From contig JAJSZP010000006.1 in assembly GCA_030262775.1 (NCBI GenBank), forward strand, positions 1 through 36,141: a stretch of DNA of 36,141 bases. Reading direction: 5' to 3'. Below, one piece after another: positions 12,509 to 16,139 of the stretch. Positions within the stretch are counted from its first letter, which is position 1. Each line of letters starts with the position of its first letter. The notes beneath the pieces are model-generated. The model was not told the DNA's origin, searched no databases, and worked only from the letters and a program-made list of their open reading frames with translations. The stretch comes from Deltaproteobacteria bacterium. Lineage in GTDB: Bacteria; Desulfobacterota; Desulfobacteria; Desulfobacterales; ETH-SRB1. Both the position numbers and the translations under genes were made by a program.

Positions 12509-13555
12509 TCAGTTTTCCGTTAAAAATTTTACAGCAGCATCATATACCATGTCGATAGTAATGTTTTTCATGCACCTGTGGTCTACAGGACAGTCTGGTC
12601 TCAGACAAGGGCTGCATGGCACAGGGACCCTTATAATTTGACTTTTTGAACTACTGGGACTGGTTGTTACATAGTCGGTAGAACCAAATATCGCAATCTG
12701 CGGAGTATCAAGGGCTGCCGCAACATGCATCAAACCTGAATCATTTGTAATAAAAAGTTGACATCTCTCAATTAATGCTGCAGCTTCACGGAGGCTGGTT
12801 TTGCCGCAAAAGTTGACGCAGTGATTTTCCATCAATTCAGAGACATACTGCCCAAGTGCCTTTTCACCCGGCCCTCCGAATATAGCAATCCTGGCTCCGC
12901 TGTATTTCTGCAGTTTAACACTCAGTGCAGCATATCGTTCAGGAAACCACCGCTTGGCAGATCCAAAAACAGCGCCCGGGTTTATTCCGATAAGTCTGTC
13001 TTTTTCTGTAATACCGTGTTTTGCTAATATTTTTTCAGTATGTTTACGCTCTTCGTCTGTTACGACAAGGGTTAATTGCCTGCCGTCTGATTTTAGTGAA
13101 GCACCTTTAAGAATTCCAAGATAGTAATCAATTTGATGTGCCCTTTTCAGGGCCGGCGTTAGACGGATAAAATGTGTAAGCAATAGACTTCTTGCATCAG
13201 TGTTATAGCCGAGTCTGTTTGGGATTCCTGCCCCAAAAGCTATAAAGGCGGCTTTAAAAGCATTTTGAAGAAGGATGACAAGATCGAATTTTTTTTTTCG
13301 CAGTTCCTTGCTTAATCTGGGTATGCCGGACAGGCCTTTATGTTTTCCCGCAGCATCGTAAATCAGGATATTATCAATATAAGGATTGTTGTAAAAAATT
13401 GGGGCAACCCATGGTTTTGCAAGAAGGCTTATCTTTGCTTCAGGAAAATTTTTGCGCACAGCTCTGATTGCCGGTGTTGTTATTATAGCATCTCCAACCC
13501 AGTTGGTGGAACAGATTAGTATCTGTTTTATCTGTTTAGAATGAAGAGCTTTCAT
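12509..13555 (-). CDS. waaF: Lipopolysaccharide heptosyltransferase II
   Basis: ILICSTNWVGDAIITTPAIRAVRKNFP, GINPGAVFGSAKRWFPERYA, TNDSGLMHVAAALDTPQIAIFGSTD, SPCLRPDCP; TAATG overlap with lpxK. Confidence 0.95.
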   Translation of the reverse strand: MKALHSKQIKQILICSTNWVGDAIITTPAIRAVRKNFPEAKISLLAKPWVAPIFYNNPYIDNILIYDAAGKHKGLSGIPRLSKELRKKKFDLVILLQNAFKAAFIAFGAGIPNRLGYNTDARSLLLTHFIRLTPALKRAHQIDYYLGILKGASLKSDGRQLTLVVTDEERKHTEKILAKHGITEKDRLIGINPGAVFGSAKRWFPERYAALSVKLQKYSGARIAIFGGPGEKALGQYVSELMENHCVNFCGKTSLREAAALIERCQLFITNDSGLMHVAAALDTPQIAIFGSTDYVTTSPSSSKSQIIRVPVPCSPCLRPDCPVDHRCMKNITIDMVYDAAVKFLTEN

Positions 13556-14700
13556 TAGCCTGTATTAAGTCTATTTTTTATAAAAAGATTGAATTCATTA
13601 TCACAATTTTCAAATGATATCTTTATGCCTATAACCACAAGGTCAATTGGCCATGCAATTCTGTTTGCTATTCTGGCATAGTCTTTTTCTGTTGTAATAA
13701 TAAAGTCGGTATTAGATTCTATTGCTGATTGTAATATCATGTTAAGATCTCTATCCGTGTACCTGTGATGGTCTGTAAATTCTGAACAACCCGTTACCTT
13801 ACAGTTAACCCCTTTTACTGTATTGTAAAAATCTATATTCCTTGCGATACCTGAAAAAATAAATGCTGAGTGCCCACGCAAAAATTCAAAACCCTGTGTG
13901 CACGAGTCTCCATAAATTCCTTGAGATGAAATAGTTCCGCCTTTGACGACTTTATATATATATGGAACATGTATGGTCTTAAAAACTGGTTTGCCCCTTG
14001 CATATTTTTTTAATTTAACAGAATTATACGTACTTTCCGGCTCTTTAGCAGCAACATCCGACCTTGTTAGAATAAATGCATCACCACGCATCAGGGCTGA
14101 AAGCGGTTCCCTGAGTGTGCCTCTTGGTAAAAGCCGATGATTGCCGAAAGGACAAATACTGTCAAGCAGCACCAGGTCAATGTCACGCTTGAGCTGGAGG
14201 TGCTGGTAAGCATCGTCAAACACAATAACGTCCGGATTAAAACTGTTTAAAGCTGTCATGCCTGCATTAAACCGGTTTTTACCTACAACAACAGGTATGC
14301 TTTTCAGCCGGCTGGCTATCATAAACGGTTCATCACCTGATTCGTCAGGTTTCATGAATATTGTTTTTCCATCGCTTACAATCCCTCCGGTTTTTTCCGC
14401 AAGCCCTTTATATCCCCTGCTGATTACTACCACTTTACATCCCATGCGTTTTATCAGCTCGGCAACATGAATAGTCATGGGAGTTTTGCCTGTGCCTCCA
14501 ACTGTAATATTCCCAATTGATATTACTATACAGGGAAGTTTTTTTGACCTTAATACCCCCTTTTTATAAAAAGTTTTTCTTGTTTTAACAGCGCCGCCGT
14601 AAATAAGGGAAAGCGTGAATAATAAGGACTCGAAAGAAATAAGACCAGCTTCCCTTTTACTATTCATGATGCCTTCGATTTTTTTTAACATATTGTTCAT
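13555..14700 (-). CDS. lpxK: Tetraacyldisaccharide 4'-kinase
   Basis: VISIGNITVGGTGKTPMTIHVAE, VISRGYKG, DEPFMIASRL, VFDDAYQHLQLKRDIDLVLLD, LLPRGTLREPLSAL. Confidence 0.97.
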   Translation of the reverse strand: MNNMLKKIEGIMNSKREAGLISFESLLFTLSLIYGGAVKTRKTFYKKGVLRSKKLPCIVISIGNITVGGTGKTPMTIHVAELIKRMGCKVVVISRGYKGLAEKTGGIVSDGKTIFMKPDESGDEPFMIASRLKSIPVVVGKNRFNAGMTALNSFNPDVIVFDDAYQHLQLKRDIDLVLLDSICPFGNHRLLPRGTLREPLSALMRGDAFILTRSDVAAKEPESTYNSVKLKKYARGKPVFKTIHVPYIYKVVKGGTISSQGIYGDSCTQGFEFLRGHSAFIFSGIARNIDFYNTVKGVNCKVTGCSEFTDHHRYTDRDLNMILQSAIESNTDFIITTEKDYARIANRIAWPIDLVVIGIKISFENCDNEFNLFIKNRLNTG

Positions 14701-14728
14701 AAAAGCTAAACAGTCGCCAAGCCTTCAA

Positions 14729-14844
14729 GTAACTTCTCAAAAAATTCGGCTAAAGATAAAAAAGACAAGTCCGCTATTTTACATTTTATTATTAGTTGGC
14801 GAGTCTTGTATCATGTGATTTGCCAGGATTTATTGAGAAGTTAC
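14729..14844. mobile_element. MITE-like element, IS66-type ends, 116 bp
   Basis: Termini GTAACTTCTCAA...TTGAGAAGTTAC (12-bp perfect TIR, ~25 bp imperfect), flanked by perfect 8-bp direct repeats GCCTTCAA at 14721-14728 and 14845-14852. Confidence 0.85.
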
Positions 14845-16139
14845 GCCTTCAATTGGTATTCTATGACTTTTAGAGTTTTCTCAACAGCTCCCTTATTGGC
14901 GTTAAAAACTCTAAATGTTTTTTCTCCCATATTCCGGGCTTTATCGCTATCACTGAGAATATCAGCTATTGTTTCATAAAGGCTGTTTGCATTTTCTACC
15001 TGAACAGCTCCGCCTGAATCCACAAGCATTTGAGATATATTTACAAAAGCGCTCATATATTGTCCAAATATTACTGGTTTAGAATAGGCAGAAGGTTCAA
15101 GCGGATTGTGTCCACCCAGATCTACAAGGCTTCCGCCTACAAAAGCCACATCTGCTATTGCATAAAGCCTCTTTAGAATTCCTATAGCATCAACAACAAT
15201 CACATCAAATTTTTCATCTTTATCTATATTTTCGAAATTTTTCATAAGAATTGCAAGAAATCCGGCAGATTTGCATAATTTGAGCACAGAATTTGCACGT
15301 TCAGGATTCCTCGGGACAACAATAAAAACAGTATCGGTAAAGTTTTTTTTGATCCTTGAAAAAGCATCAATAAGTATTGATTCTTCGCCCTTGTGAGTAC
15401 TTCCTGCTATTAAAATTTTTTTAGCCGGCTGATAAATATGCATAGATTGTTTTAATATTTCAATTTCCTTTTCTGAAACAGGATCATATAATTGATCGAA
15501 TTTAATGTTTCCTGTTGTTGATATCATGTTTGAAGGTATACCAAGAAGCATGAAGCGCCTGGTATCTTCAATGGACTGGGTGCATATTTTTGCAAAAGAC
15601 AAAAATAGTTTATTGGAAATAAATAAAAAACACTTATATCCCTTAAATGACTTTTTGGATAGCCTGGCATTGATCAGGATAACCGGCACACTGCGTTTTT
15701 TCATCTCGAATAGAAAGTTTGGCCAGATATCTGACTCAACGATAATAACTATGGCTGGATCTATTTTTCCTGTAATATATTTTACAGAAAACAGCAGATC
15801 AAAAGGAAAGAAAAATATTGAATCCACATTTTTTTTAAAAAGCTTGTTTGCTATTTCAAAGCCTGTTTTGGTTGAAGCTGAAAAAACAATTCTTTTATCT
15901 TTAAAACGCTTCTCCAACTTCATGACAAGAGGAACAGAAGAGAGAACTTCTCCAACAGATAGCGCATGTACCCATATCGGCTTGTCCCTTTTGAATAATA
16001 TATTTTCAGGAAGCCTCTTTAACCCCAGTCTTTGCAGAAATGTTTTTCGCCTTTTTTCAAACAAAAGAATAATTGGAATTATCAGAGGAATGCCAACGGT
16101 GATTCCTATTGTAAGTATAATATTATACAGAGTGATCAT
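14841..16139 (-). CDS. waaA: 3-deoxy-D-manno-octulosonic acid transferase
   Basis: PIWVHALSVGEVLSSVPL, VIIVESDIWPNFLFEMKKR, NARLSKKS, GSTHKGEE, FVGGSLVDLGGHNPLEPSAYSKPVIFG. Confidence 0.96.
   Translation of the reverse strand: MITLYNIILTIGITVGIPLIIPIILLFEKRRKTFLQRLGLKRLPENILFKRDKPIWVHALSVGEVLSSVPLVMKLEKRFKDKRIVFSASTKTGFEIANKLFKKNVDSIFFFPFDLLFSVKYITGKIDPAIVIIVESDIWPNFLFEMKKRSVPVILINARLSKKSFKGYKCFLFISNKLFLSFAKICTQSIEDTRRFMLLGIPSNMISTTGNIKFDQLYDPVSEKEIEILKQSMHIYQPAKKILIAGSTHKGEESILIDAFSRIKKNFTDTVFIVVPRNPERANSVLKLCKSAGFLAILMKNFENIDKDEKFDVIVVDAIGILKRLYAIADVAFVGGSLVDLGGHNPLEPSAYSKPVIFGQYMSAFVNISQMLVDSGGAVQVENANSLYETIADILSDSDKARNMGEKTFRVFNANKGAVEKTLKVIEYQLKA

Follow-up and report, generated by a model that had tools for sequence, protein, structure and literature searches.

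In the deltaproteobacterial genome G000, the 3' end of the Kdo transferase gene waaA very probably owes its present form to a mobile element: an IS66-type MITE would have inserted into the last codons of the gene and ended it with its own TAA, the loss of about one residue would have been tolerated, the native stop codon would then have decayed, and the element itself would have shrunk. The window, that is, the whole stretch of 36,141 nucleotides analysed here, is contig C6 of this genome (2.57 Mb, 251 contigs), and the 116-bp element sits in it between the consecutive minus-strand genes waaA and lpxK.

Anatomy of the element at the waaA-lpxK junction

The features of the junction are as follows.

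14841..16139, minus strand: waaA (Kdo transferase), 432 aa, intact (Pfam PF04413, E 5e-54, and PF00534; structure 2xci)
13555..14700, minus strand: lpxK, 381 aa, intact, start codon and 5' leader undisturbed (Pfam PF02606, E 1e-85)
14729..14844, minus strand as read along waaA: IS66-type MITE, 116 bp, no gene (ends, own-genome BLAST, long-form comparison)
14833..14844, minus strand: terminal inverted repeat on the waaA side, GTAACTTCTCAA (sequence inspection; 22/25 match to the ends at G004:C463)
14729..14740, plus strand: terminal inverted repeat on the lpxK side (sequence inspection)
14721..14728, no strand: lpxK-side copy of the 8-bp target duplication, GCCTTCAA (TTGAAGGC on the minus strand; identical octamer on the lpxK side in G002)
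14845..14852, no strand: waaA-side copy of the 8-bp target duplication, GCCTTCAA (identical bases in G002 contig C332)
14841..14843, minus strand: current waaA stop TAA, within the element end GTAA (sequence and ORF)
14714..14716, minus strand: remnant of the native stop codon of waaA, reading CGA in G000 and TAA at the equivalent place in G001, G002 and G007 (junction alignment)

A sequence-only reading of the window had described a 116-bp element with matching ends and perfect 8-bp repeats on either side, and all of these are present. The ends are perfect 12-bp inverted repeats (GTAACTTCTCAA/TTGAGAAGTTAC), and the 26-bp arms are 81% complementary. Over spans of 50-3000 bp, mismatch-free 12-bp inverted repeats bordered by an equally perfect 8-bp direct repeat occurred once in the window and in 0 of 300 dinucleotide-Markov shuffled windows.

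The 3' end of waaA reads CAA TTG AAG GC|G TAA, in which the minus-strand GTAA (14841-14844) belongs to the element; the earlier proposal that the terminal repeat supplies the stop of waaA is thus borne out. The solved structures align to WaaA up to residue 400 (2xci) or 428 (4bfc), which places the end of the protein beyond the matched fold. The waaA-lpxK gap was lengthened by the insertion from about 13 to 140 nt.

Empty and filled sites in relatives

Alignment of the junction among relatives, which had been proposed as a check, revealed an empty site in G001, where waaA ends one codon further on (...QLKDW*; AAG GAC TGG TAA) and the ATG of lpxK follows after 13 nt. The flanks in G001 and G002 both place the native stop (TGG TAA) one codon past the insertion point. 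An old stop lying 13 nt before lpxK contradicts the earlier claim that the insertion uncoupled waaA from an overlapping lpxK start. In G004 and G005, WaaA is 6-7 residues longer (after QLKD/N), and these are the only relatives with a 4-nt ATGA overlap with lpxK; because their junction is of different sequence, this overlap is not clearly the pre-insertion state.

The element halves of G002 are on separate contigs. On C332, waaA ends GAAGGC|GTAAC (...CAATTGAAGGC|GTAACTTCTC) and the contig terminates inside the element, while on C160 TTGAAGGCTTGGTAACGGTTTAACTTTTATG and lpxK (TTGAAGGCTTGGTAACGG...ATG-lpxK) come after a 390-bp element, with TTGAAGGC TTGG TAA CGG retained downstream of it. From their sequences, the octamers TTGAAGGC on C332 and C160 appear to be the matching pair from a single insertion. 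In G007, a 288-bp element is followed by TTGAAGGTAACGG...lpxK (downstream sequence, TTGAAGGTAACGGTTTAGC). The left flank of the element is another gene both at G002:C160 (L109) and at G007:C181 (L112). These far-side joins to unrelated genes would stem either from mis-assembly or from recombination among copies of the element; the reciprocal of the odd joint in G002 C160 was searched for and was absent.

Removal of the element together with one copy of the duplication gives a joined-flank frame, WRLFSFYEQYVKKNRRHHE, that in G000 alone is open for 19 further codons. From this frame it could be argued, as in the sequence-only reading, that the insertion cost WaaA 19 codons and disrupted a long overlap between waaA and lpxK. 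We regard this as very improbable: the frame exists arithmetically, but G001, G002 and G007 have TAA where G000 has CGA, and relatives in the genus never exceed 6-7 extra terminal residues in WaaA. Judged by these relatives, the joined-flank frame is unlikely to be an ancestral coding sequence. Since TAA stands at this place in the three congeners, the CGA at 14714-14716 is best read as the decayed native stop, and the apparent 19-codon tail would have arisen because this stop decayed in DNA that was no longer coding. The insertion would therefore have shortened WaaA, as had been claimed, by about one C-terminal residue (QLKA* now, about QLKAW* earlier) and not by 19 codons. The apparent truncation, as a trace of stop decay after insertion, illustrates that reconstruction from a single genome can mislead. 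A reading of the repeat as chiefly an RNA structure under selection in the waaA-lpxK mRNA, with a role in processing or attenuation, is very unlikely. Its transcript is predicted to fold at -26.3 kcal/mol (z -4.15), better than 200/200 shuffles, but such folding is expected from the inverted ends, and congeners are without the element or have unrelated repeats at the equivalent place. In addition, the search for an Rfam family gave only sub-threshold chance matches and none at the gathering score, so that a known structured RNA was rejected as the identity of the element, which contains no terminator-like site and no terminator or promoter above shuffle expectation. A tolerated insertion is the reading that we adopt below.

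Family, long form and candidate transposase

The ends of IS66 elements start with GTAA and make 8-bp target duplications. The terminal inverted repeats of the window element are GTAA-initial and perfect over 12 bp (GTAACTTCTCAA), and they are flanked by the duplication GCCTTCAA/GCCTTCAA. The 116 bp hold no transposase gene, and the ends are common to a transposase-bearing element, G004:C463:640-3287. Related copies are dispersed, with 10 exact GTAACTTCTCAATAA ends in G000 and 1-14 in each of 7 congeners; this 15-base end was found in 8/8 genus genomes, and the reversed-pattern control gave 0. BLAST against the element's own genome also revealed related ends and partial copies, among the elements of G000 being ones of 154, 155 and 249 bp with the same ends and 7-8-bp duplications, one having a mismatch; the 155-bp copy carries one substitution in one end. 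The expectation that other copies would show independent 8-bp duplications was likewise confirmed, by CTTGAATT at another copy in G000 and by perfect duplications of unrelated sequence at seven further copies in the genus (CTAATTGG, GTATTTAT, TTTTTCAT, CTCATTTT, TAAAATAC, CTTAGTTT and CAAAGTCA), and the element is not single-copy. Several additional genus copies that were fetched have 8-bp duplications with one mismatch.

A long form of 288 bp is present in many copies in the genus. Compared with the 288-bp copy that lies upstream of the G007 lpxK, the window copy shows 93.9% identity over its bases 1-66 and 97.9% over bases 70-116; it corresponds to long-form bases 1-66 and 242-288, with about 172 bp absent internally. 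By this comparison, the window element is an internally deleted form of the 288-bp family. Because the joint contains 19 bp (bases 59-77) that match the right arm of the long form in inverse orientation as well, the alignment suggests that the deletion went via an internal palindrome.

The transposase-bearing element at G004:C463:640-3287 (L155) is intact, is 2,648 bp long and has 25-bp perfect ends; over its first 25 bases, the terminal repeat agrees with the waaA-side end of the window element at 22 positions. It encodes a 542-aa IS66-family transposase (PF03050) and a 286-aa DruA-family protein (PF14236). These ends, shared with a PF03050-bearing element, join the GTAA ends and the 8-bp duplications in upholding the earlier assignment to IS66-type MITEs. 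No 8-bp duplication is recognisable around the G004:C463 element, and the three-gene tnpA-tnpB-tnpC layout of classical IS66 was not found in it. The IS66 loci of G000 itself (C223, C102) were rejected as partner because their ends do not match. Thus, the system resembles IS66 insertion sequences and MITEs in its GTAA...TTAC ends, its 8-bp duplications and its same-ended intact genus relative with an IS66-family transposase, whereas it differs in that this relative has DruA as its second gene with no tnpA/tnpB-type genes seen, and the MITE is gene-less.

In this genus, IS66-family transposase genes repeatedly adjoin a DruA-family (PF14236) gene (G004:C463, G000:C223, G006:C108, G007:C178, G003:C165, G003:C168 and G004:C225). 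Since both genes at G004:C463 lie within the 25-bp perfect terminal repeats, DruA-like proteins could be accessory components encoded by transposons; among the papers searched, none combined the terms DruA, IS66 and transposase.

Taken in sequence, a non-autonomous MITE, presumably moved in trans by an IS66-family transposase that recognises the GTAACTTCTCAATAA... ends, entered the last codons of waaA at TTGAAGGC and generated an 8-bp duplication, as anatomy and comparison show. Because the phase of insertion was NN|GTAA, the TAA of the element would have terminated waaA one codon ahead of the native TAA. The insertion was presumably tolerated because only about one residue was lost and the duplicated 8 bp kept the last codons of waaA and the leader of lpxK intact. 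The native stop, turned non-coding, would have decayed to CGA in G000, and the element, which is 288 bp in G007 or 390 bp in G002, would have shrunk to 116 bp in G000 through internal deletion.

History of the insertion

The insertion allele is present in G000 and at least two congeners, and common descent is favoured because the octamer, the orientation and the GGCTTGG allele are shared. It is a real, though lesser, possibility, bearing on the history only, that the insertions in G000, G002 and G007 were not one event and arose by separate insertions at the same site or by interspecies recombination. In the waaA, lpxK and rpoB trees, much of which is unresolved, G002 groups with G004 (and with G005 for waaA and lpxK), both of which have empty sites, and G000 groups with G001, G006, G007 and L098 for lpxK; G005 was left out of use for rpoB (wrong-frame row), the remainder of that tree being largely unresolved. 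Both groups thus include an empty site, that of the second being in G001, and a MITE in G052 struck the same gene end independently. Against separate events, the target octamer and orientation are identical, all the elements come from the 288-bp family, and the GGCTTGG target allele is common to G000 and G002, unlike in G001, G004 and G005. The distribution would fit a single ancestral insertion that some lineages later lost, and equally recombinational spread or parallel insertion.

A parallel in another family and comparable cases

In G052, which belongs to a different family, a 271-bp element bounded by the same GTAACTTCTCAA ends of 12 bp follows waaA (L048, minus strand from 1758), the last codons of which read AAA GAA AC|G TAA, so that the element supplies the stop; no matching 8-bp duplication was found at it. 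Exact 14-mer GTAACTTCTCAATA ends number 142 in G052 and 90 in G037 (control pattern, 0), and their counts point to major expansions of these elements in further families of the order. Because the genome is crowded with such ends and the element is without a matching duplication, chance is sufficient to explain the G052 parallel. Among 77 distinct ends examined in the fetched loci, a non-random sample, there were 7 rows with a long open frame ending inside the element, 5/7 of them at the fourth base. It is unlikely that GTAA-ended MITEs have been recurrently recruited as the waaA stop codon, with GTAACTTCTCAATAA as a ready-made stop letting elements settle at the 3' ends of operon genes; the cases behind this idea are one common to G000 and G002 and one independent in G052.

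A gene end supplied by a MITE is an already known, mostly harmless kind of event, of which waaA is a new and well-documented case. QMITE1 and QMITE2 of Coxiella burnetii overlap the 3' ends of several genes, including ubiB (2 bp) and kdgK (1 bp), and alter protein ends (PMC5896051). The likeness is that a MITE overlaps the 3' end of a gene and sets the end of its protein; the MITE families and hosts are different, and the QMITEs mostly add residues, whereas the end of the window element is an immediate stop (PMC5896051). Short inverted-repeat mobile sequences have also been reviewed as joining bacterial coding sequences in frame; those are mostly translated through, while the window element halts translation at its fourth base (PMC2229807). 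The junction is a well-resolved natural case in which an operon of essential lipid A genes accommodates a mobile element, owing to the in-phase stop codon at the element's end.

Variability of the junction and divergence of its genes

Among relatives, the gap between waaA and lpxK varies from -4 to 411 nt, and that of the control junction lptF-waaA from 19 to 517 nt. Because the control gap varies as much, the junction is not clearly special, and we do not claim it as an insertion hot spot. Repeat-like but unrelated inserts, about 200-350 bp long, lie between waaA and lpxK at L036/L102 (G006; GTGCCTAAAGTGAGCTAAAGT...GCTCACTTTAGGCAC), L098, L111 (G003), L037, L041 and L042, and unrelated junction repeats also occur in several sister-genus genomes. 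In G002, G004 and G005, identity to G000 is 66-69% for LpxK and 84-86% for WaaA, and in G001 it is about 88% for both; the contrast in the former three would reflect either very different divergence rates or exchange of lpxK. In G057 (L060, C166:23746-), waaA and lpxK appear as a single fused open frame of 820 aa.
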